Assembly (NCBI RefSeq): GCF_000428125.1
Contig: NZ_ATZI01000005.1
Location: forward strand, 1-64,000
Length of the DNA: 64,000 nucleotides
Direction: 5' to 3'
Origin: Bacteroides graminisolvens DSM 19988 = JCM 15093
GTDB taxonomy: Bacteria; Bacteroidota; Bacteroidia; Bacteroidales; Bacteroidaceae
Made by a program: the position numbers and the translations under genes. The notes under the pieces were generated by a model. It saw only the letters and a program-made list of their open reading frames with translations. It was not told the DNA's origin and made no database searches. This document shows, in pieces, positions 291 through 11,547 of this stretch; the first letter of the stretch is position 1, and each line of letters opens with the position of its first letter.

Positions 291-2191
291 GGTTCTTCGT
301 CAAATTTGGTGCAAAATAACGGTTCTTAAACAACCAGTATAATTGACTTATTGTGTTGATATACAGGCAAATAAATAACAAAAAGCTAGTATAATAGAAT
401 TATTTTTATTATCTTTAAAGGTCTGACACTAAAGGATTTAAAGATGATTGACAACACTAGCCAACCCAAAGATAATAACTTTTTTATAAACAAACATTCG
501 CTCCAAGCTATTTTTGGAATCCCAGGTGTTGTATTCTATGATTCCGTTATAAGTGATAATTTGATTCTTCTATCTGCCCGTCTTAAAGACAAGACAGCAA
601 AATGTATCTGTTGCGGTAAAAGGAGTAAAAGTGTCCATTCATCCTATATGCGCAAATTAACAGATCTAGCTGTAGTTGGCAGAGCTGTTAAAATTATACT
701 GAAAGTCAGAAAGTTTAGATGCCGTTACAGTAATTGCACTCAAACAGTTTTCTCTGAGCAACATCTGCCCTTAACGCGGAAACACTCACGACTGACAGAT
801 CGCACAAGTCACTTTTTGCAAAAACTGCTCATTGAGGTCTCTTCTCGTAAAGGTGAGTATATAAGTGAGCTCCTATCAATAAAGCAGAGCAGTTCTACCT
901 GTCTTAGAATCGTTAAGTCTATAGAAATGCCCCATTTTCAGGAACTAACTACCATAGGCATAGATGACTGGGCATACAGGAAAGGCAAATCGTATGGTAC
1001 TATTATTGTAAATGCGATTAATCACCGTCCCGTAGAACTACTAAAGAGTAGAGACAAGGAGGAGGTTGCAGATTGGCTTATAAGACATAACTCCATACTG
1101 TATGTAACCAGGGATCGATCAAGCAGCTACTCTAATGCTATAAAGTCTGGGGCATCCAAGGCGTCACAAATAGCAGACAGGTTTCATTTAGTGAAAAATC
1201 TGGGAGATCACATAGCACATGAAATACGAATGGAGTATAAAACCATTAAAAATAGTTGGTTGGCTCACAGGAAGAGTCTTTATAAAAGCAAAAAAATAAC
1301 ATCTGCTTAAGTAGTGGAGATAACGAAAATACCAGCGATTCACAATATAACAAACACACCAATAGTGTTAACCATAGAAAACAGGAGTTGTTTAACAGGA
1401 TTCATGAGCTTAAAAACAACAACTACTCTCAAAGAGCAATTGCCAAGGCTTTAAACATTAGCCGTAATACTGTAAGATATTATTTTGAAATGGAAGAGTT
1501 GTTGCCACGAGCAACCATCTATTATAATAATTATGGAGATTTTATGGATCTGATTAAGGAGTGTTGTAATCAGGGGTTAAATGTAAGAAATATATTTGTG
1601 TCTCTGAAAAAACAGGGATTCAAGGGTAATCAAACATCTTTTTATCAGTGGTTCAACAGGCACTTCCCGGAATATCAGAATAAGAAAAGATTACCAGTAG
1701 CATTAAATACCTCTCCGATAGTTTATGAAGAAACTCGATTTAGCGGAATGTCACCCAACAGACTTGCTATACATTTAACAAATAGTGAATGGGGTGTTTC
1801 AAAGGAAACAGGCGAGTGTAGCAAGTCTCACATACTGGCAGAGGATATTATTAACTCCTCTATGTTATTAAAAAGCATGAGAGAGGTATACAACACTTTT
1901 AGAGAGGTTTTGAACAGTAAAGATGAACTTAGATTAGACCAATGGCTCGAGAAGTATAAGTCGACCCAAATACGGAGGATTAAAAGTTTTATAAATGGCA
2001 TTATTCATGATTTGGAAGCAGTAAAAAACGCCATTAAATACCCTTGGAGTAATGGAGTTGTGGAGGGGCATGTAAACAGATTAAAAAACAAGAAAAGAGA
2101 GATGTATGGCAGGGCTGGATTTGAACTGTTAAGACGAAAGGTCGTGCTTTCCAACTTAGGATAACCTGCACCAAATTTGACGAAGAACCAC
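289..2191 (+). mobile_element. ISL3-family insertion sequence
   Basis: Positions 289-313 and 2167-2191 are exact 25-bp inverted repeats, with the GGTTCTTCG-type tip common in the ISL3 family, and they bracket an ISL3-type transposase. ISL3 elements normally make 8-bp target duplications. The flanks here (AGGATTGT on the left, CTTTTGGG on the right) do not match, and the element separates two different truncated mobile genes. The left and right sides were thus probably joined by recombination or deletion after insertion. The transposase is frameshifted, so the copy is probably non-autonomous. Confidence 0.88.
444..2164 (+). pseudogene. ISL3-family transposase, frameshifted
   Basis: Two frames together make one ISL3 transposase. 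Part one (444-1310, 288 aa) has an N-terminal zinc finger (CICCG, then CRYSNC) and the first catalytic region (IGIDDWAYRKG, VTRDRSSSY). Part two reads in the -1 frame from about 1290 to 2164 and carries the helix-turn-helix (YSQRAIAKALNISRNTV) and the C-terminal catalytic block (SNGVVEGHVNRLKNKKREMYGRAG). The frame changes at an A7 run, 1290-1296; frame two is open across the junction, so one base gained or lost explains everything. Programmed or transcriptional slippage on A7 is possible but less likely, since ISL3 transposases are normally single ORFs. Confidence 0.85.
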
Positions 2192-3200
2192 TTTTGGGGT
2201 GAAATAAACAAACAAGCCGTAGGGCAGGTGCTGGGCAACCGGTTCGAAATGGATTTTGAGGATTACAGTTATGGTTTCCGTCCGAACAAAAATGCCCAAC
2301 AAGCAGTACTCAAAGCACTGGATTACATCAACAGCGGTTATCAGGACATTGTAGATATTGACCTGAAAAGCTTCTTCGATGAAGTTGACCACTGCGTTCT
2401 GCTTCAATTGCTGTATCGCAGGGTAAAATGCCCGCTTACCTTACGCCTTATCCGCAAATGGCTGAGAGCTCCGATTTTAATCAACGGGAAATTAGTCAAA
2501 CGCCGCAAAGGAGTACCACAGGGCAGTCCACTAAGTCCGATACTCTCCAATATCATGTTGGATGAACTGGACAAGGAACTGGCAAGGCGAGGGTTAAAGT
2601 ATGTCCGTTATGCTGATGACTTCAGCATTTACTGCAAAAGTCAATGGCAAGCCCGAAAAACAGGCAACGAAATTTATCTCTTCTTAAAGAATAAGCTTCA
2701 CCTGCCTATTAACAGGGAAAAAAGCGGCATACGACGACCAGTAAATTTCACCCTGTTAGGCTTTGCATTTGTCCCTACCTATAAAAAGGGGGAGAAAGGC
2801 AAATACCAGTTGGTGGTAAGCGACAAAGGATGGAAAAACCTGAAACTGAAACTCAAAGCCATTACCCGAAAAACCACCCCCGCCACTTTCGATGAGCGCA
2901 TTATCAAGCTGAAAGAAGTACAGCAAGGCTGGCTTCAATACTACCGTATGGCAAGTATTCAGGGAAAACTCAAAGACGTGGACGGCTGGGTACGCAATCG
3001 ACTGCGCTGCTGTATCTGGAAACAATGGAAGAAACCTGAACGACGACGGAAAAACCTGATGCGTTTGGGCGTTGACCTTGAACACGCTTACAGTCACAGC
3101 CGAAGCCGTATGGGAACCTGGGCAGTAGCTTGTAGTCCTATTTTGAAAACCACCATCACGGTGGAAGGACTGCAACAACGCGGGTGCGAGTCTATGTTAA
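2192..3200 (+). pseudogene. Group II intron reverse transcriptase/maturase, truncated
   Basis: About 335 residues of a bacterial group II intron-encoded protein: YSYGFRP, DIDLKSFFDEVDH, GVPQGSPLSPILSNIMLDELD, the catalytic VRYADDF, and a C-terminal maturase (GIIM-type) region with GWLQYYR and CIWKQWKKP. The N-terminus (RT-0, RT-1) is missing because the frame starts at the end of the ISL3 element. The last residues (ESMLIHAP) run into antisense carbonic anhydrase sequence. No domain V hairpin is visible downstream, so the 3' end of the intron is missing as well. The base composition is more GC-rich than that of the adjacent ISL3 element. Confidence 0.87.
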
Positions 3201-3483
3201 TCCATGCTCCCTAAATTGTCTTTAATCAAAACATTACCTGCAATCCGTATGCTAAAATATCCCCCAAGCCTTGTTCGAAGATTAATTCAGCCGAAGTTCT
3301 GGAATCAATACAACTAAGAATTGTTGCAAACGGAAATTGTCCTTCTGAAGTTTGATTTACTTGTTTGAGCAGATTTCTATCGGTTTAAAGTTGTTTATTA
3401 AACGCAGGTTACCTTCTATAAAAAAACGCTTAAGCTTTTTGAGATGTTATTTTGTCTTGTGATTCTTTGGTATGTATCCACAT
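3200..3483 (-). pseudogene. Beta-carbonic anhydrase, decayed fragment
   Basis: Reading the minus strand with frame changes gives a recognisable beta-carbonic anhydrase: start ATG at 3483 (MWIHTKESQDKITSQKA), then VNQTSEGQFPFATILSCIDSR (split here over two frames), TSAELIFEQGLGDI, then SIRIAGN and LGSM in another frame. The zinc-ligand/dyad core CIDSR is intact. At least three frameshifts are needed (near 3430, 3380 and 3255), and the coding sequence ends where the reverse transcriptase fragment begins. The start lies 6 bp beyond the Sua5 stop codon, so it was most likely the last gene of that operon. The enzyme interconverts CO2 and bicarbonate. Confidence 0.78.
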
Positions 3484-3489
3484 AAATCT

Positions 3490-4452
3490 TTAGTTTGTTG
3501 AATTATTATATTGATATGCAGCTTTTTTTACCCTGTCCATTATCGCGATTCCCAGTCCTTTTTCTTCAACAGGTTCAATATAAATACTTTTCACACTTTC
3601 ATCTTCTTCCATTGTATGAAGTGAGGCAAACAGATTGGCGGAAATTTCAATTTTATTGCAGGTTTGAGAGGTGTATATAACTTTCGTGGCCGTGTAATCG
3701 GCATTATTATTTCTATGCAAAATCAGCCCGGAGAATTCGGGAAAATACCTTAATGGCTCATTTAAAATATAAAGAGGTTTTTTGGGTGAATAGTGGCTTT
3801 TCAGCAAGCCCGGAGAAACTAATTTTTCAGGCCTGGTACTGTTGAAAATAAAAATATCCGGAAGAGCATTTTCAATATCTTCCAATGTAATAAAGCCCGG
3901 ACGTAATAAGCGACAGGTATCGCCTTCAATCGAAACAATTGTTGATTCTATTCCCACAGATGTATTGCCTCCATCCAACACATAATCGACATTGGGTAAT
4001 TGTTTTTTTACATGATGTGCATTTACCGGACTAAGCTGTCCGAACTTATTTGCACTTGGTGCGGCTATCGGACAATTCGACTGTTTTATTAATTCAAGGG
4101 CAATGGAATTATTGGGCATGCGAATGCCTACTGTGTCGAGCCCGGAAGTAACAATATCCGGAACAATCGATGATTTGGGTAACACAATGGTCAAAGGTCC
4201 CGGCCAAAAATGCTTTGCTAAACGCATTACATTTTCACATATACCTGTTGATAAAATGTGAAGGTCCTCGAACGAAGCAATGTGCACAATCAATGGATCG
4301 AATGATGGTCGCTCTTTTAATTCAAATATTTTAGCAACAGCAAAAGGGTTAAGTGCATTTGCACCTAACCCATATACTGTTTCAGTCGGAAAAGCCACCA
4401 GCCCGCCATCTTTGATAATTTGAGCCGCCTGGCTAATGCTGTTATTTTTCAT
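3490..4452 (-). CDS. Sua5/YrdC/TsaC threonylcarbamoyl-AMP synthase
   Basis: This enzyme makes L-threonylcarbamoyl-AMP from threonine, bicarbonate and ATP, the first step of the tRNA modification t6A. About 320 residues give the two-domain Sua5 form: the YrdC domain (GGLVAFPTETVYGLGANA near the N-terminus, KERPSFDPLIVH, PSANKFGQLSP) followed by a C-terminal Sua5 domain (SPGLLKSHYSPKKPL, MDRVKKAAYQ at the end). I chose ATG 4452 because an upstream extension would run through purE. It overlaps the end of purE by 11 bp, implying translational coupling. Whether it is the only tsaC gene or a paralogue with an operon-specific role cannot be seen here. Confidence 0.9.
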   Translation of the reverse strand: MKNNSISQAAQIIKDGGLVAFPTETVYGLGANALNPFAVAKIFELKERPSFDPLIVHIASFEDLHILSTGICENVMRLAKHFWPGPLTIVLPKSSIVPDIVTSGLDTVGIRMPNNSIALELIKQSNCPIAAPSANKFGQLSPVNAHHVKKQLPNVDYVLDGGNTSVGIESTIVSIEGDTCRLLRPGFITLEDIENALPDIFIFNSTRPEKLVSPGLLKSHYSPKKPLYILNEPLRYFPEFSGLILHRNNNADYTATKVIYTSQTCNKIEISANLFASLHTMEEDESVKSIYIEPVEEKGLGIAIMDRVKKAAYQYNNSTN

Positions 4453-4918
4453 TGACCAGATTATTATCGGCTTCTTCCAACTCTTTTCTCTTTTTGTCCT
4501 GAAAATCAATAATTTGTTTTTGAATTTCATGGTTAGATATGCCCAGTATTTTTGCAGCTGCCAGAGCTGCATTTTCGGGACTTAAAACGGTCATAGGAGC
4601 AACTCCCGATGGCATACGGATACTTGAATACAAATCGGCTCCACCAAATTTATCGCTATAGGGCGGACAGGCGATAACGGGACAGTACGTTTGAGCATCG
4701 GTAAAGCCGCTTAACGCATTACTCATGCCGGCTATGGTTATAAAAACAACATTTTCCTTTTCATATTCCTTTATCAGATTATAACATTTTAATGGCACTT
4801 TATGGGCCGAAGCTATTCTGGATACTGTTTTTATATCAAAACTTTCCAGCACGTTGCTTATTTGCTTAGCCCACTCAATGTCGGCTTTAGAACCCATTAT
4901 TATCACCACTTTGCTCAT
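4442..4918 (-). CDS. purE: Class II PurE, AIR carboxylase
   Basis: The 158 residues match the PurE fold: IIMGSKADIEWA and RIASAHKVP at the N-terminus. Several blocks resemble the class II (treponemal/animal-type) enzyme rather than E. coli-type class I: ITIAGMSNALSGF, IACPPYSD, GGADLYSSIRMPSG and NAALAAAKI. Class II enzymes carboxylate aminoimidazole ribonucleotide directly with CO2 and need no PurK. The start overlaps the end of the P-loop gene by 32 bp, and the stop overlaps Sua5, so it sits inside a coupled operon and away from other purine genes. That suggests either a back-up purine step or a related carboxylation in another pathway. Confidence 0.85.
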   Translation of the reverse strand: MSKVVIIMGSKADIEWAKQISNVLESFDIKTVSRIASAHKVPLKCYNLIKEYEKENVVFITIAGMSNALSGFTDAQTYCPVIACPPYSDKFGGADLYSSIRMPSGVAPMTVLSPENAALAAAKILGISNHEIQKQIIDFQDKKRKELEEADNNLVNEK

Positions 4919-6842
4919 AGTCTTCTATTTTATTAAATGAATACTCATATTGGTAGCTCATTGGGATAATCTCATTGTATTCCTCAATGCTTGCATTTGA
5001 CAAACAAGCATCAATTATTCGTTTGCCTGTATGTAATAAGTCTTCCTTTAAGTATTTTTGTAATTCTGTTCTGAAAAAATCACGAAGCATTTCGGCGCCG
5101 GCATCGTAACCCTCGAAACCAACTTCAGGTTGATTGTACACTTTCAAAAATCGCGAAGGAATTTTTGAACCTTCCAGGGTAAGGTAATTTAACTCATAAC
5201 CTAACAGCGGGCAGCGGGCGGCCTGATATTGATCGGTCTTCAGTTGGGCAGCACCTCTTCGTGTCAGGTACTCACGCATGAGAAGCTGCGGTTTGAAACC
5301 AACCTGCCAAACTCCAATGTTTTGATTGGGAACCAGGGTGAAAGTTGTACGGGGCGTATCAATGATTTGTTTGAGCATCATATTGGCTTGAGGTACTCGT
5401 TTCCCGGTAGCGAAAGGCCAATAAGAACCAATACCTTCGCTTTCCATACCGCCCGAACTCACAATACTTGGGTTATTGTGACCCCGTGGCGCAACTAAAC
5501 GCCACAACCATGCCAATGCCGGGGGTAAAACATGAAACAACCCGATAATTCCGTATGAAGGGTTTTCTTTTGAGCAAACAGGAGTGCGTATCCCGAAACT
5601 CCTGATGTCGACCGAAACAGGTCTGTTGACAACATTTGGTACCGTTTTTCGGGGTATAATAACCCTTGGATTGGGGCACGATTTTCCGGGTTCATCCTGT
5701 ATATGATCCCAAATCAGAGCAGTTGACCCGGGAGTAGTTTCAATATTTAAAAACAATAGCGGAGAAGATGGATTAATCGTTGTTTTTTCCAAAGTTGGGT
5801 CATCACCATATTGTTTAACACTATCGACACGAACAAACCAGGCGTTTTCGGCATCTATAATACGGAGTTTTCCATCTTTTTTCTGTACCGAAGGATGACA
5901 AAAAGCCATATCATCGGCCACAGCGTTGAACGAACAAAAACGGGGAATTGTAATAAACCTATCTTCTGAGGTTACCAGATTACGGCCTAATAGTACCCGT
6001 CCGTCAGATTCCCGCAGAATATGCTGGTGCATTTCACTTTTTCCTCCACCACTGGCACCTTCGTGCATGAATGTGGTTAAATTGTCGTAGGGGCTTATTG
6101 ATTGAACTGCCGAACAATGCGCAATTATCCAGTCTTCTTTTTCGGCATGGTTCAGCATAACACCGTAAAGACCTTTTTTTGCACTCGGCCCCGGATATAA
6201 ATTATAGGAATATAGCTCGTGAATTGATTCGGTGCGGTTATGGACAACCACCTGTTTCCCATTAAAATGGGTATGCCTGAATATGGGAGCCACAAATATT
6301 ACAGATTTCAGTTTTGCACCTATCTTTAATTCGTCAACCGCAACCATTTCCTGCAACATCGACAAACCCAATGCAAAGAATGCTGCATTGGCAGGAGCAA
6401 TAGCAATACCTAAAGAGCCAATATTTTCTCTTCCGGCAAAATAGAAGAAAACCGCAAGGTCTTGTTTTTTCAGCCAATCGAAAGTTTCGGTTTGCAGACC
6501 TGAAAATTCATACCCGTATTTATCAATAAAACGCTTTTTATCTGTTGGATTATTGTCGGCAATAACCATGGTATCAGGGTCTCTACGGCGCATGTATGCT
6601 TCGGTATAATTAGCCGAAATTCCATTTTTAACACGCTGTACAATTGCCTCTGTATAATTTCCTTTCCCTGGTACATCGTATTGCACTTCATATTGTACAT
6701 TTTCTTTGCCGTTGGTGGCTGCATCTGCCAATTCTTCGGATGTATTGAACACTTTAAAACTCTTGCATTCAGTTAACAACTTAGCAATGTTTTCAGGAAC
6801 AATAATATTTTTCCCATTTAAAACAGTCAATAAATTACTCAT
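4887..6842 (-). CDS. PEPCK-like P-loop protein (DUF4914-type)
   Basis: The 651-residue protein has a phosphate-binding loop GASGGGKSE at about residues 262-270, in a setting like the kinase-1 loop of phosphoenolpyruvate carboxykinase. Other visible blocks are FFYFAGREN (about 133-140), HNRTESIHELYSYNLYPGP, and a conserved-looking SSGGMESEGIGSYWPFATG. I believe this is the family Pfam calls DUF4914, whose function I do not know. It has no signal peptide and should be cytosolic. Its ATG overlaps the HAD stop codon (ATGA), so the two are translationally coupled. The substrate is unknown; nucleotide-dependent phosphoryl transfer, possibly with carboxylation or decarboxylation, is inferred from the fold only. 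Confidence 0.75.
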   Translation of the reverse strand: MSNLLTVLNGKNIIVPENIAKLLTECKSFKVFNTSEELADAATNGKENVQYEVQYDVPGKGNYTEAIVQRVKNGISANYTEAYMRRRDPDTMVIADNNPTDKKRFIDKYGYEFSGLQTETFDWLKKQDLAVFFYFAGRENIGSLGIAIAPANAAFFALGLSMLQEMVAVDELKIGAKLKSVIFVAPIFRHTHFNGKQVVVHNRTESIHELYSYNLYPGPSAKKGLYGVMLNHAEKEDWIIAHCSAVQSISPYDNLTTFMHEGASGGGKSEMHQHILRESDGRVLLGRNLVTSEDRFITIPRFCSFNAVADDMAFCHPSVQKKDGKLRIIDAENAWFVRVDSVKQYGDDPTLEKTTINPSSPLLFLNIETTPGSTALIWDHIQDEPGKSCPNPRVIIPRKTVPNVVNRPVSVDIRSFGIRTPVCSKENPSYGIIGLFHVLPPALAWLWRLVAPRGHNNPSIVSSGGMESEGIGSYWPFATGKRVPQANMMLKQIIDTPRTTFTLVPNQNIGVWQVGFKPQLLMREYLTRRGAAQLKTDQYQAARCPLLGYELNYLTLEGSKIPSRFLKVYNQPEVGFEGYDAGAEMLRDFFRTELQKYLKEDLLHTGKRIIDACLSNASIEEYNEIIPMSYQYEYSFNKIEDYEQSGDNNGF

Positions 6843-7384
6843 ATCTGATTATTTTTTAAAATTATATGCTTTGAAGCTTCTAAAAGATTAGAACAAATAA
6901 CAGTCTCTTTGTTTATTTCATTCTGATGTTTTTTACCATGACCGGTTAACAAATAAATTGGTGTAATTCCGGCATTTAATCCACACTGAATGTCTGAAGG
7001 ATGGTCGCCAATAATAAAAGAACGACTTAAATCAATATTGTACAATAGGTTAGCCTTGTCAATAAAATACGTTCTGGGTTTCTTACATTCACAATTATCC
7101 TCTGTATTATGCGGACAACAAAAAGTATCAGAAATAACTATATCCTGCTCTTTCAATTTTTTTATGATGTGTTTGTTTACCTCTGAAACCTCCTTTTCTG
7201 TGGTAATTCCTTTGGCTATACCTGATTGGTTAGTAATAATGAACAATAAAAAATGCTCCAGTAATAATGATAATGCTTCAAAAGTAAACGAATAAAAGCT
7301 TACTTCAGATGAATGTTTAATATAACCTACATCATCAATCAATGTTCCGTCTCTGTCTAAAAAAACCGCAGGATGCTTAGCCAT
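6839..7384 (-). CDS. HAD-IIIA phosphatase, GmhB/histidinol-phosphatase type
   Basis: A 181-residue HAD phosphatase with the nucleophile/acid motif DRDGTL (residues 10-15), motif II IITNQSG, the GmhB-type zinc site CPHN...CECKKP, and motif IV GDHPSDIQCG. Family members dephosphorylate heptose bisphosphate or histidinol phosphate; the real substrate cannot be told from sequence. No other LPS-heptose or histidine gene is nearby. It is coupled to the P-loop gene by a 4-bp overlap, so it more likely removes a phosphate from an intermediate of this operon. The product is cytosolic. Confidence 0.85.
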   Translation of the reverse strand: MAKHPAVFLDRDGTLIDDVGYIKHSSEVSFYSFTFEALSLLLEHFLLFIITNQSGIAKGITTEKEVSEVNKHIIKKLKEQDIVISDTFCCPHNTEDNCECKKPRTYFIDKANLLYNIDLSRSFIIGDHPSDIQCGLNAGITPIYLLTGHGKKHQNEINKETVICSNLLEASKHIILKNNQI

Positions 7385-7459
7385 TGCTTCAATTATTTCA
7401 TTGGCAAAGATAATACTTTTTACTTAATAAATAAAGTGCTACTTAATTTTATTTTTGGA

Positions 7460-7747
7460 TTAATAAGATGGAGGAGATTGCACCCAAATAATTTCGCTTA
7501 CACCATCGAAGTAATTAATGGCATTAAACTGAGATTTAGCATTAAAGTAGATATTATCACCGGGCTTAAGAACAAAACTTTTTCCGTCCAAATCAAACCG
7601 CACTTCGCCTGAAAGTACATAAGAGAATATCTGACCAAAGGTGTATATAACAATTGAAAAGGATTGTTTACCAGAATTACGGGGAAAATTAGTGCACTTA
7701 CAATCCTTCAATATATAAACAAGATTAATAACAAACCCATTGGACAA
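7460..7747 (-). CDS. Cupin-domain protein, probably the remnant of a regulator
   Basis: The last 60 residues are a clear cupin half: FSYVLSGEVRFDLDGKSF followed by LKPGDNIYF. This is the usual C-terminal domain of helix-turn-helix/cupin regulators of about 180 residues. Here the ORF is only 95 residues, the N-terminal 35 do not resemble a helix-turn-helix, and none is visible upstream in any minus-strand frame. It is probably a truncated regulator at the head of the operon, 75 bp before the HAD gene. A stand-alone small cupin enzyme is the alternative. Confidence 0.5.
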   Translation of the reverse strand: MSNGFVINLVYILKDCKCTNFPRNSGKQSFSIVIYTFGQIFSYVLSGEVRFDLDGKSFVLKPGDNIYFNAKSQFNAINYFDGVSEIIWVQSPPSY

Positions 7748-8426
7748 ATTAAATATGCACTAATTTAATTCCGCCAACGGGTTTTTAAAAATACGATTAT
7801 AGCAGTTTAACTGCTGAGACATTTAGTTTTCTCGTTTTTATTTTATTCTTAAATCTCCAGCATTTTATTCTGAAAGCAAAACCGATAAGTTCCTGTAACT
7901 AAAAGTTGAAGCTCGGATAAGAAAAAGATTTGTGTAAAAAGTAATAATCTTGACTTCGTTGTTTTTTATAAGGCTGAGTGAAACGAAACCTTAGATTATT
8001 GTATTTTTCATTATATAGCAATTTCTAATAAACATAAGCAGCGAATACTTTCATTTTCGCCAAGGGCTACTCTTAAAGGGGTGATTCATTGTTACAAATA
8101 TATGTTTTTTTGCTAATACTTTCCACTGTATCACCCGAAATTAACATAGTTTTTTATCCAAATGCTTTGAACAACAGCCACCATTCATCTACCATAAGTT
8201 ATAAAAACAGAGCTCCTAAAAATAGACCAAACGAACCTTTGTGAGGGGAATCTTGAATTTCTAAATCATATTAAATATCCTTCTTATTATTATATATTTA
8301 AACGAGTAGAACTAATTTTACAAATTCACCCCTTGAGATCATGAATCAGACGAATCTTGTCAAGAGCAGATTTATATATTATTAACGGGTAAACAGGGAA
8401 GCAACAAGGAGCAGCAAGACTTTGGT
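7748..8426. other. AT-rich non-coding stretch
   Basis: About 680 bp without a convincing gene on either strand. I see no tRNA, hairpin terminator or transposon end. It may hold the promoter of the minus-strand operon and eroded sequence. Confidence 0.5.
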
Positions 8427-8715
8427 AAAACATAACCAACTTTTTGAAAAACATAACCAACTTTTTCAAAAAGATAACCAGCAATTTTAAATCGTAAACC
8501 GTCTTTTGGGTCATGATAAACCGTCTTATGACCGTAACACGGTTGCTCAGGAACCTTTTGCTACCGTGCAAACCGGCGCGAGACACCGTGTTAATGCAAT
8601 CACAAGCCGGCAAGACATAAAAAAAGGCAAGAGTACGAACTCCTGCCTTTGCGCCTATAATAATTTGAATATACTATAAGCTTATAAGTACAAAGATAAT
8701 ACATTATACTGTCAA
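8427..8715 (-). repeat. 290-bp intergenic repeat, copy A
   Basis: The reverse complement of this segment aligns end to end with 39786-40075, with long identical blocks. In order, reading the minus strand, it contains a -7 box TATCTTTG (8691-8698), a short stem with a T-run (8619-8647), a 57-nt hairpin closed by AACACGGT/ACCGTGTT (8536-8592), AGACGGTTT repeats, and a roughly 21-bp tandem unit containing GTTGGTTATG. Short reading frames across it are artefacts of the repeats. It carries no transposase and could be a small mobile or RNA-based element. Confidence 0.85.
8619..8684 (-). ncRNA. Putative small RNA from repeat copy A
   Basis: On the minus strand a promoter (TTTG, 20-nt spacer, TATCTTTG at 8691-8698) is followed about 50 nt later by a hairpin (GGCAGGAGT/ACTCTTGCC, loop TCGT) and a run of T. 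A transcript of roughly 65 nt is expected. Compared with copy B, the stem sequence changes but pairing is kept (one G-U in A, all Watson-Crick in B). The start point is estimated from the promoter. Confidence 0.45.
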
Positions 8716-9234
8716 TTCCAAATCATTGTGGTTCTTTTATCAGGTTATTATTAGGGCACAAACCGTGGTGTTTCGAATGTAACGAAAATAGCCAATCCGC
8801 AAAATAAATACATAAAGGAACCAACGAAAAGCCTTATACAAAAATAATAAAAAGCTATATTATATAAGGAAAAATCACCAAAAATGTTGGTGATACTTGG
8901 TGATACTTGGTGAGGCTTTTTTTTAGCCAAGTGTCACACATAAAAAACTGATAATCAATCCGTTGCAAGGTTGGTGATACTTGGTGATACTTTATTTCAT
9001 ACTTTTTATGAGGAAAAACGAAAAAAAAGAGGAGCTGAAAACTGTTTTTCCTGAACTTTATCTGATGAATAAGACGGAAATAGTAAGTCTTTATTAAAAC
9101 GTTCTGAGGTAACTGTTATCACAAAAATCAGGTTTTTTTTATTTGCGTGCAACTTCCCGCGGGCTTGTTACGTCTAACATTTGTAGCGCGCACAAAAATA
9201 AAAATAGAGTATTAACTGGAATAGCCTGATTTTA
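8716..9234. other. Non-coding region with TTGGTGATAC tandem repeats
   Basis: There is no gene here. The decamer TTGGTGATAC occurs at 8887-8896 and 8897-8906, followed by the variant TTGGTGAGGC at 8907-8916, and again twice at 8971-8990. An inverted copy (ATCACCA, 8874-8880) pairs with the first unit. The decamers could be a binding array for a regulator. The region just before 9235 must carry the promoter of the outer membrane protein gene, but no clean TAnnTTTG box is seen. Confidence 0.5.
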
Positions 9235-11547
9235 ATGAAAAAGATACTAAGTTTGCTTGTCACCGTATTCGCATGTCAATGTGTGTTGGGCCAGGCACTG
9301 CAATTAAAGGGATTGATCATGTCATCATCCAAACAACCTGTTGAATTTGCCAATGTGGTTCTCAGAAATAACGACTCGGTTTTTGTGACGGGGGGTATTA
9401 CCGATGATAAAGGTCGTTTTAATATGAATAACCTTCGCAGAGGAGCCTATAAATTACAAATTTCTTGTCTGGGATACGAAACCAGAACACTGGAACTGAA
9501 AGACTTTACCAAAAATATTGATTTGGGGCGTATTGAGATTGACAGTACTTCAATCGCTTTAAATGAGGTGGTGGTAACGGGTGCCAACGTGATTAATAAA
9601 GTTGATCGCAAGGTGGTACTTCCCAGTGCCTCTCAACTTAAATCATCGACCAACGGATTTGATTTGCTGCAACGGCTTAATTTGAATCGCATCGACATTG
9701 ACTTGTTACGCAATGCGGTGTCGGGTGCAGGTGGTGGCGAAGTGCAACTTCGCATCAACGGCGTGAAGGCTAGTGTGGAAGAGATTAAATCGATCCGTCC
9801 GGAAGACATTGTCCGCATTGAACATTATGAAGAACCGGGAGCGCGGTACCAAAACGCCGAAGCGGTGATTGATTACATTGTGCGTCGTCGCAACAGTGGG
9901 GGATATGTATCTGCCGACCTGAGAAACTCTTTTCAGTTTCCTTTCGGCGACAATAATTTTAATGCCAAACTGAATCACAACAAATCTGAATTTGGCGTAT
10001 TCTACAGCGGCAGTTACCGTGGCATTGACGAGATGTACCGAAATAATTCGGAGGAGTTTCACATGGCCGACGGCCGAGTGTTGAATCGCATCGAGGAGGG
10101 ATCACCCGACTGGTGGAAGATGAACTGGCAATACATGCATTTGAATTATAGTTATCAGGAACCTGATAAATGGTTTTTTAATGCAACTGTCCGCAATCAG
10201 ATCAATGACGTTCCCCGCGAAAATCATACCAGTAAGCTGTATTGGCTTCATCGCTCAAACGAAGCAATGAACATGATCGAGAAATCGTCATCCGAAACGC
10301 ACATTCCTTCTGTGGACTTGTATTTTCAGTCAAATCTCAAGAATCAGCAATTTTTAATGTTCAATTTGGTGGGAACGTACATTGACACGGACAAGAAAAG
10401 ATATTATTCCGAAATGACGGGCAATGAAACTTTAACCGAATTGCTTTCTGACATAGATGGTAATAAGTATTCGGTGATTGGTGAGGGTATCTATGAGAAA
10501 GGTTTTAAAAGTGGCAGCCTCAGTGCGGGAATAAAGCATACGCAAAGCTATACGGACAATACGTATACCGGTTCAACCAATGCGGAGAGTACGATGAAGC
10601 AAGCGGAGACATACTTGTATGCTGAGTTTAAAGGAAAGGTAAAACGTTTCAATTATTCGTTGGGAATAGGCGGAACACGTTCTTGGATGAGTGCTCAGGG
10701 TAACGGGTATCAGGACTATACGTTACGCCCCACCATTAGTTTGAAGTATAACCTGACCGACAAGTCGTCTATCAAGTATACTGCCAATTTGTATAGCTCT
10801 TCTCCGTCTCTTTCTGATCTTGAGAATGTGGAGCAAATAGTTGACTCCATGCAGATTCGTCGCGGAAATAGTCAGCTGAAACCTTACATGGTGTATGCGC
10901 ATTCGTTGAATTATGAAATGAGTAAAGGCATCTTTAACGGTGGTGTGTATGTGGGGCACAGGTATTCTGATAATCCCATCATGGAAAGTACTACGCTGGA
11001 AAATGGGAAGTTTGTTCGCAGCATGGAGAATCAAAAGAGCTGGCAACGGTTGAATACGGAGGTTTCTATCTCGGTGAAGCCTTTTAAGGATCTGCTCACC
11101 ATGAAGTTTAGCGGAGGTATGGCTCATTTTGACAGCAGGGGACTGAACTATCACCACACGTATACCAACTGGTATTACAACGGAACTATCAATGCTACGT
11201 ATAAAGATTGGTCTTTATATGGCAATATCAAGAAAGGGCGCAACAATTTTTATGGCGAAACAATGAGTCGCAATGAGAATTTCCATTCCATTGGCATGAA
11301 CTATCGCCACAAGAGTCTGACGTTGGGTATGATGACGCTGAATCCGTTTACAAAGACTTGGAAAGGTGGAGACGATAACTACAGTGCCTTGGCTCCTTCC
11401 AAAGAACGTATTTACATCGGAAATCTTTCAAGAATGATGGTGTTCTCAGTCTCTTATAACTTTAATTTTGGCCGTAAGTTTAGCTCTGTAGAGAAAAGAT
11501 TGAATAACGAGGATAAGGACTCGGGAGTATTAGATGCAGGTAAATAA
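9235..11547 (+). CDS. Outer membrane beta-barrel protein with carboxypeptidase-like domain
   Basis: The 770-residue protein has a signal peptide (MKKILSLLVTVFACQCVLGQ), then a carboxypeptidase-regulatory-like domain (about 22-100: LKGLIMSSSKQPVEFANVVL, GAYKLQISCLGYETRTLEL). Next come a plug-like segment (VVVTGANVINKVDRKVV, INGVKASVEEIKSIRPEDI) and a long barrel ending in alternating aromatic strands (MMVFSVSYNFNFG). It is built like a TonB-dependent receptor of the OMP_b-brl_3 type, but no SusD partner or TonB box is evident. The substrate is unknown. It stands alone, with its own terminator downstream. Confidence 0.85.
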   Translation: MKKILSLLVTVFACQCVLGQALQLKGLIMSSSKQPVEFANVVLRNNDSVFVTGGITDDKGRFNMNNLRRGAYKLQISCLGYETRTLELKDFTKNIDLGRIEIDSTSIALNEVVVTGANVINKVDRKVVLPSASQLKSSTNGFDLLQRLNLNRIDIDLLRNAVSGAGGGEVQLRINGVKASVEEIKSIRPEDIVRIEHYEEPGARYQNAEAVIDYIVRRRNSGGYVSADLRNSFQFPFGDNNFNAKLNHNKSEFGVFYSGSYRGIDEMYRNNSEEFHMADGRVLNRIEEGSPDWWKMNWQYMHLNYSYQEPDKWFFNATVRNQINDVPRENHTSKLYWLHRSNEAMNMIEKSSSETHIPSVDLYFQSNLKNQQFLMFNLVGTYIDTDKKRYYSEMTGNETLTELLSDIDGNKYSVIGEGIYEKGFKSGSLSAGIKHTQSYTDNTYTGSTNAESTMKQAETYLYAEFKGKVKRFNYSLGIGGTRSWMSAQGNGYQDYTLRPTISLKYNLTDKSSIKYTANLYSSSPSLSDLENVEQIVDSMQIRRGNSQLKPYMVYAHSLNYEMSKGIFNGGVYVGHRYSDNPIMESTTLENGKFVRSMENQKSWQRLNTEVSISVKPFKDLLTMKFSGGMAHFDSRGLNYHHTYTNWYYNGTINATYKDWSLYGNIKKGRNNFYGETMSRNENFHSIGMNYRHKSLTLGMMTLNPFTKTWKGGDDNYSALAPSKERIYIGNLSRMMVFSVSYNFNFGRKFSSVEKRLNNEDKDSGVLDAGK

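Follow-up and report, generated by a model that had tools for sequence, protein, structure and literature searches.

Gene layout of the operon

The window, a stretch of 64,000 nucleotides from contig NZ_ATZI01000005.1 of Bacteroides graminisolvens DSM 19988, contains an operon built around a P-loop protein of the family DUF4914. Read in the direction of transcription, the locus begins with the remnant of a gene for an XRE-cupin transcriptional regulator (7460–7642), followed by an operator-like site, ATTAAGTAGCACTTTATTTATTAAG (7423–7447), and by TATCTTTG (7405–7412), a promoter box of the Bacteroidota -7 type situated 3' of that site. The box is named after what we take to be the Bacteroidota -7 consensus, TAnnTTTG, and by eye the same or a similar box comes after the site in many relatives. 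Downstream are the genes for a GmhB-like HAD-IIIA phosphatase (6839–7384), the 651-residue DUF4914 protein with its predicted phosphoenolpyruvate carboxykinase (PEPCK) fold (4887–6842), a class II PurE of the aminoimidazole ribonucleotide (AIR) carboxylase type (PurE-II; 4442–4918), a Sua5/TsaC L-threonylcarbamoyladenylate synthase with a C-terminal Sua5 domain (3490–4452, ATG at 4452) and a beta-carbonic anhydrase pseudogene (3200–3483, ATG at 3483). All of these features are on the minus strand. The order of the five enzyme genes, their successive overlaps (4, 32 and 11 bp) and, after Sua5, a gap of 6 bp had been described in an earlier reading made without database searches (the sequence-only reading), and the coordinates of the open reading frames (ORFs) and the sequence agree with it exactly. 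The name DUF4914, the truncated regulator gene and the operator-like site go beyond that reading.

When the intact 193-residue regulator of locus L011 is used as a tblastn query, residues 134–193 align with the remnant (coverage 0.31), which also gives a Cupin_2 match; the cupin half is kept and the helix-turn-helix half is lost. The carbonic anhydrase is broken, as had been proposed, with an early stop, two reading frames and a missing C-terminal half, and the anhydrase of the L010 operon aligns with it by tblastn over residues 1–95 of 208, in two frames. The L010 protein itself is a beta-carbonic anhydrase by NF011765 (249, cut-off 221). Because the regulator and the anhydrase are remnants in the window, its four intact genes have probably escaped regulation or come under host control. 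The operon is more than a chance arrangement, since intact orthologous operons recur in other genomes.

Predicted fold and putative catalytic positions of DUF4914

The P-loop protein scores 952.6 bits against DUF4914 (PF16260, gathering score 25.7) over model positions 2–612 of 612, and at E 0.001 it matches neither PEPCK Pfam family (PF01293, PF00821). A phmmer search of the Protein Data Bank (PDB) sequences gave no match at E ≤ 1, and a profile search gave three chance matches alone (E 0.93–2.1), so a comparison of folds was needed. The AlphaFold2 model, made from 21 sequences, has a predicted local distance difference test score of 86.2 and a predicted TM-score of 0.86. The best 50 structural matches to the model, as listed, are all PEPCKs. 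Foldseek finds 1xkv at E 1e-21 with a TM-score of 0.74 by target length, and VIA-align gives Z 29.6 and a root mean square deviation (rmsd) of 3.5 over 599 residues for the pyrophosphate-dependent PEPCK (PPi-PEPCK) 8e1u, a tie with the ATP-PEPCK 2pc9 (Z 28.9, rmsd 3.1, 486 residues). The predicted structure thus has the two-domain PEPCK fold across the whole chain. On this model DUF4914 is a full-length PEPCK fold, a likeness that alone shows no function.

Profile alignment with hhalign relates DUF4914 to ATP-PEPCKs at P 6e-7 and Prob 92 when ten of their sequences are used, and at P 3e-5 and Prob 72.5 with three. This alignment pairs R86, Y216, K222/K223, H242 and the P-loop at 262–269 with catalytic positions, which we take to be, in role and number, R65, Y207, K212/K213, H232 and 248–255 of E. 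coli PEPCK. The PDB titles of PEPCKs among the structural matches name mutants at R65, Y207, K212, K213, S250, K254 and D269. A weak alignment with GTP-PEPCKs (P 0.003, Prob 9.9) pairs H242, the P-loop, D310/D311 and R393 with PEPCK positions. R86, Y216, K222/K223, H242, residues 262–269, D310/D311 and R393 are invariant in all 21 DUF4914 sequences, so that the P-loop GASGGGKS and the Lys and His metal-ligand positions are both invariant and aligned with PEPCK.

With the ATP-PEPCKs, DUF4914 shares the whole fold, the P-loop and the profile-aligned Lys-Lys, His, Tyr and one Arg; with the GTP-PEPCKs it shares the fold and the P-loop, and the Asp-Asp and a second Arg are paired by the weak alignment. 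In contrast to both, it has its own Pfam family, the P-loop GASGGGKS and an identity to them of 13–17%, and it usually occurs in genomes that also have a classical PEPCK. The PPi-PEPCKs 8e1u and 6k31 give the highest VIA-align Z, with nearly the whole model aligned, but they have about 1,100 residues compared with 651; the comparison with them was one of structure.

Within the host's family DUF4914 is over the cut-off in one of 121 genomes, the host itself, where a search for a second copy found none; in a phylum sample it is over the cut-off in 13 of 395 genomes, host included. It also occurs in metagenome-assembled genomes (MAGs) labelled Bacteroidetes, Planctomycetota, Verrucomicrobia, Anaerolineae and others. 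A divergent homologue at locus L175 (genome G606) has 31% identity to the protein of the window and scores 369.5 bits against PF16260. Thermotoga maritima, used as a control genome, has a DUF4914 over the cut-off and matches neither PF01293 nor PF00821, and a 2012 gene table (Table 3 of PMC3561251) has no pepck entry for it. DUF4914 or PF16260 is named in no paper of the literature searched, which covered few subscription journals, and the family appears to be unstudied. It offers a directly assayable candidate at the phosphoenolpyruvate (PEP)-oxaloacetate node, in Thermotoga maritima as well.

Recurrence and proposed regulation in related genomes

We compared 63 DUF4914 loci: the window, 26 from a genome scan, 29 from the family of Maribellus G515 and 7 from the phylum sample. 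The 29 family loci stem from 28 of 29 further genomes over the cut-off, the fragment G588 being excluded; from the phylum sample, 8 of the 12 other matches over the cut-off were fetched with flanks, and L187 was dropped as a duplicate of L012. Loci whose DUF4914 is at least 65% identical to that of the window are called near (44 of 63) and the other 19 distant. The counts depend on the tblastn thresholds, and most genomes are MAGs, some with short contigs, so presences are lower bounds.

The fullest form is found in Prolixibacteraceae, the family to which Maribellus belongs, and reads XRE-cupin regulator, HAD (not always present), DUF4914, PurE-II, Sua5 and beta-carbonic anhydrase. Among the 44 near loci, the regulator is complete in 30 and partial in 2, Sua5 is present in 27 with one further fragment, and PurE-II is full-length in 16 and a fragment in 3, with PurK and a class I PurE in another 3. 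A full-length carbonic anhydrase, where it occurs, is the last gene of the operon. Malate dehydrogenase (Mdh) is encoded upstream of DUF4914 in four near loci and the alpha subunit of oxaloacetate decarboxylase (OadA) in one; citrate synthase is found in four, upstream in three, of which two are cut by a contig end, and downstream in L164. The presence of these enzymes before DUF4914 in a few loci points to a link with oxaloacetate.

The sequence-only reading had expected the P-loop gene to keep its neighbours in other genomes. This holds for loci at least 65% identical, where the partners recur, and fails below 65%: PurE-II, Sua5, HAD, the anhydrase and the other partners are found in none of the 19 distant loci, within 6.5 kb and on the same strand. 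DUF4914 does not, then, depend on these partners. Ten neighbour proteins, six from beside distant DUF4914 genes, three from L012 and L015 and one from downstream of the L008 operon, revealed no common theme; six had no Pfam match, and one, in L024, was an ATP-PEPCK. The gene of the latter (L024:9073–10701) comes immediately after DUF4914 and shares its strand.

Several other arrangements were seen. In L013, L028, L030 and L170, the genes after DUF4914 are cysD-like and cysN-like (sulfate adenylyltransferase by reading), and three of these four loci have the XRE-cupin gene. In L017, L031 and L148 it lies amid hydrogenase- or NADH-dehydrogenase-like genes, as judged from clusters read by eye, and an MFS transporter recurs in four loci. 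Genome G547 has two operons, L158 and L159, with DUF4914 proteins of different clades (68% and 89% identical to that of the window). In gene trees made with FastTree and read without support values, the DUF4914 of L159 groups with the Maribellus clade, whereas its Sua5, anhydrase and PurE-II group with those of L157/L158; it appears that DUF4914, too, has been exchanged within an existing operon.

A 25-bp operator-like site, ATTAAGTAnTACTTnATTnATTAAG, lies 5' of the operon. Its consensus was drafted by eye from eight loci (the window, L006–L011 and L016) and has 22 scored positions, of which the site in the window matches 21. A site scoring at least 17 of 22 is found upstream of the operon in all 32 loci with an XRE-cupin gene, 24 of which are outside the training set, and for 23 of these 24 none of 50 shuffles, made in two-base blocks and thus not truly dinucleotide-preserving, equalled the observed score. 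The site comes after the regulator gene in 27 of the 32; in the other five (L017, L031, L149, L150 and L156) the regulator gene is downstream and the site stands before DUF4914. A site of at least 17 also precedes the regulator gene itself in 19 of 32 loci, the window, which has lost this end, not being among them. None of the 19 distant loci has a site of 16 or more, and when 8 of the 12 near loci without an XRE-cupin gene were scored, one reached 17 (L158) and one 16 (L159). The site at 7423–7447 is the sole one above 17 in the 64 kb of the window, itself a training locus. We infer that the XRE-cupin protein binds this candidate site. Like PuuR-type regulators, the protein of the relatives has an N-terminal helix-turn-helix and a C-terminal cupin, but its score against PuuR is just 52 bits, with a cut-off of 211.

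It is very improbable that these are ordinary housekeeping genes lying together by chance. In favour of that explanation, each of the families is common and these neighbours are missing around all 19 distant DUF4914 genes. Against it stand the extra copies described below, the common site and regulator gene, and an order that is conserved while DUF4914 ranges from 66 to 100% identity. The outer flanks are little shared: among the 78 pairs that can be formed from 13 loci carrying PurE-II or PurK and having flanks of sufficient length, 10 have any gene outside the cassette in common, with up to six in close pairs. The cassette is thus kept while its surroundings mostly change.

The host assembly comprises 3.63 Mb and is 99.9% complete. 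Positions 3746–7641 of the window are 99.97% identical over 3,896 bp to contig L006, which belongs to another Bacteroidales MAG. At one end the match breaks off within the regulator remnant, at 7641, and at the other it runs to the end of the L006 contig. Since DUF4914 occurs in one of 121 genomes of the family and the match to L006 is this close, the operon is probably a recent horizontal arrival, unless a contig is misbinned.

Duplicate enzymes and the proposed role of the set

The best PDB relative of the operon PurE is 3rg8, presumably the PurE of Treponema denticola, and the SAHK and SNALSG motifs and the conserved His agree with the class II assignment made earlier. It scores 144.4 bits against PF00731 and 149.0 bits against the purE equivalog TIGR01162 (cut-off 149.6), a model that, we infer, does not separate the PurE classes. 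The host has a second purE, of class I, on contig C11, where the neighbouring ORFs are gcvH- and ispG-like by their translations. A high-scoring class I-type purE is present elsewhere in 14 of 15 genomes with an intact operon PurE-II, and none is shown in G513. The operon Sua5 has both the YrdC and the C-terminal Sua5 domain (PF01300 191.6 bits, PF03481 75.6 bits) and is over the cut-off of TIGR00057 (193.3, cut-off 123.2), in line with other Sua5/TsaC proteins. What sets it apart is that the host has two YrdC-domain genes besides it; at least two such genes are found in all 27 genomes checked. The worry raised in the sequence-only reading, that purE and tsaC here might be the sole housekeeping copies, is therefore removed for both genes.

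The PurE-II proteins were compared with human PAICS using the substrate-phosphate contacts given in PMC9376930. The equivalents of the catalytic His, Lys304, Ser274 and Asp277 are kept. Two of the four phosphate contacts are changed: the Ser276 equivalent is Ala in 16 of 16 operon copies, and at the place of Arg331 14 of the 16 have Met and the other two (L151 and L152) Arg. Operon PurE-II therefore resembles 3rg8 and human PAICS in its SAHK and SNALSG motifs and catalytic His, and differs from them at these two positions and in being extra beside a class I PurE. The class I PurE of the host likewise has Met at the Arg331 place.

In three related loci (L160, L163 and L174), PurK and a class I PurE occur with DUF4914 and Sua5, and there is no intact PurE-II. 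L174 has a full-length purK (384 residues) followed by the class I purE, with a PurE-II fragment nearer DUF4914; in L163 the purK product has 366 residues, the last twenty or so seemingly missing, and purK and purE are over their cut-offs; in L160 purK is split into two ORFs. Outside these loci, each of the three genomes concerned (G552, G554 and G609) encodes another class I PurE. The replacement of PurE-II by PurK and class I PurE fits ordinary synthesis of carboxyaminoimidazole ribonucleotide (CAIR), and suggests that the PurE slot serves the conversion of AIR to CAIR. A neofunctionalised PurE, marked by the Arg-to-Met change, was held less likely after the PurK loci and the Met of the host's class I PurE had been seen. 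Genome G300, where the phylum-sample search gave no DUF4914 match, has a 64% identical PurE-II beside an ORF that reads as purC-like, and no other PurE match. In G192, G286 and G504 (loci L089, L095 and L112), PurE matches lie inside frames of 472–492 codons and are possibly PurE fusions.

The sequence-only reading had the coupled genes sharing one undescribed carboxylation or carbamoylation task, with the HAD enzyme removing a phosphate from an intermediate. The part that these are not scattered housekeeping genes is upheld by the recurring operon and the extra copies; the part that there is a single undescribed task is not, given the CAIR-compatible enzymes in three loci. One pathway to a new product is accordingly improbable, even though tight coupling with recurrence, the additional purE and YrdC-domain genes and the two altered phosphate contacts (Ser276 to Ala and Arg331 to Met; PMC9376930) would suit it. 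PurK and class I PurE replace PurE-II in L163 and L174, and in L160 with its split purK, and the PurE-II of G300 is the only purE match there and lies next to a purC-like ORF. The HAD, moreover, is dispensable: it is full-length in 6 of 44 near loci and degenerate in 4, which leaves the phosphate-removal role weak. The HAD of the window scores 111.8 bits against TIGR01656 (cut-off 84.15) and falls below the GmhB cut-offs (NF006506, 134 against 178; TIGR00213, 104.7 against 149.6).

PurE-II uses CO2, and PurK and Sua5 use bicarbonate. PEPCKs use CO2, according to PMC8100219, and PMC5951830 gives human YRDC a Km for bicarbonate of 13 mM in the formation of threonylcarbamoyl-AMP, a value that makes synthesis of the tRNA modification threonylcarbamoyladenosine (t6A) sensitive to the bicarbonate level. 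The reading we favour, tentatively and at somewhat less than even confidence, is that the locus is a transferred, partly decayed copy of a Prolixibacteraceae operon of spare CO2/bicarbonate enzymes, with a PEPCK-like DUF4914 and XRE-cupin control. DUF4914 would interconvert oxaloacetate with PEP and CO2, PurE-II (elsewhere PurK and class I PurE) would convert AIR to CAIR, and Sua5 would turn bicarbonate into threonylcarbamoyl-AMP. The anhydrase would hold CO2 and HCO3- in balance, linking the users of CO2 with those of bicarbonate. The XRE-cupin protein would keep the set repressed from the operator-like site, and repression would end when CO2/HCO3- becomes scarce or when the cupin binds a metabolite of the oxaloacetate node. 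Having spare copies under joint control would be of use where growth is limited by CO2/HCO3-. The duplicate set is plausibly for CO2 or bicarbonate limitation, with the signal and the DUF4914 activity presumed.

A number of results weigh against this reading. The CO2 theme is drawn from the known substrates of the families, and a full-length carbonic anhydrase is found in just 7 of 44 near loci, with fragments in 2 more, one of them in the window. The HAD is scarce as well, the distant loci have none of the partners, and some near DUF4914 genes adjoin other genes, such as the cysD-like gene of L013, L028, L030 and L170. The four loci with malate dehydrogenase stem from three genomes, and the purK evidence is limited to L160, L163 and L174, which are related, and in L160 purK is split. 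The Met at the Arg331 place makes a changed specificity of PurE-II possible, though it does not require one. As for the transfer, G+C content gives no foreign mark (0.393 for the operon, 0.415 for 9235–64000). The ATP-PEPCK alignment does not bring D310/D311 or R393 together with the Asp pair and Arg that would be their counterparts; R393 is five columns off. Finally, ATP-PEPCK, of which the host carries one gene, is over the cut-off in 29 of the 38 distinct genomes with DUF4914 that were searched for it, the host among them, with partial or weak matches in three (G519, G523 and G534); the 38 are mostly Bacteroidota, and G517 and G386, with identical places and scores, are counted once. Nine of the 38 lack ATP-PEPCK; in a GTP-PEPCK (PF00821) search of 22 genome records, seven of these had a GTP-PEPCK and two (G514 and G532) had neither. 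DUF4914 is thus usually an addition to a classical PEPCK and may be no plain PEPCK. That it stands in for an absent PEPCK was rejected for most genomes.

It is possible, if doubtful, that DUF4914 is instead a PEPCK-fold kinase or decarboxylase of a substrate other than oxaloacetate, whose neighbours are simply co-regulated. The usual presence of a classical PEPCK, the 13–17% identity, the pairing of the Asp pair and one Arg by weak alignment alone and the variation of the remaining neighbours among clades all speak for this, whereas the mapping of most catalytic PEPCK positions onto invariant residues, and Mdh, citrate synthase or OadA ahead of DUF4914 in a few loci, speak for oxaloacetate. 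We consider it very unlikely that the genes, instead of responding to CO2, encode replacements that stay active under an inhibitor of the housekeeping enzymes. All members do look like second copies of common enzymes, and the operon seems to be mobile; a group made up of several CO2-using enzymes and a carbonic anhydrase would, however, make an improbable shared target, ordinary class I enzymes also fill the PurE slot, and no resistance-like gene was seen among the recurrent clusters read by eye, in which no search was aimed at such genes.

Returning to the spare-enzyme reading, a bolder form of it, rather unlikely as a whole, would place DUF4914 in the ATP/GTP PEPCK superfamily as its third branch, acting between oxaloacetate and PEP and serving as the PEPCK of Thermotoga maritima. 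In Prolixibacteraceae it would head a mobile regulon, with the XRE-cupin protein and the 25-bp operator, of second copies of the CO2/bicarbonate steps of C4 acids, purines and tRNA t6A, together with a carbonic anhydrase, for times of scarce CO2. The operon suggests that some bacteria possess spare CO2/bicarbonate enzymes as a set that is regulated and can be transferred, a kind of set that narrow literature searches did not find described. If it is CO2-responsive, it would supply both a regulator and a DNA site through which Bacteroidota could sense CO2.

In the window, the anhydrase pseudogene ends beside an ORF for a group II intron reverse transcriptase/maturase on the plus strand (2177–3214; RVT_1 and GIIM matches), which lies outside the operon. 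Beyond it, positions 2–2164 hold transposase-type ORFs of 105, 288 and 258 residues, named by reading their translations, so that the 3' side of the operon carries a pile of mobile elements. On the other side, about 1.6 kb without a clear gene (7641–9235) separates the truncated regulator from a gene for an outer-membrane beta-barrel protein and looks like rearrangement debris.

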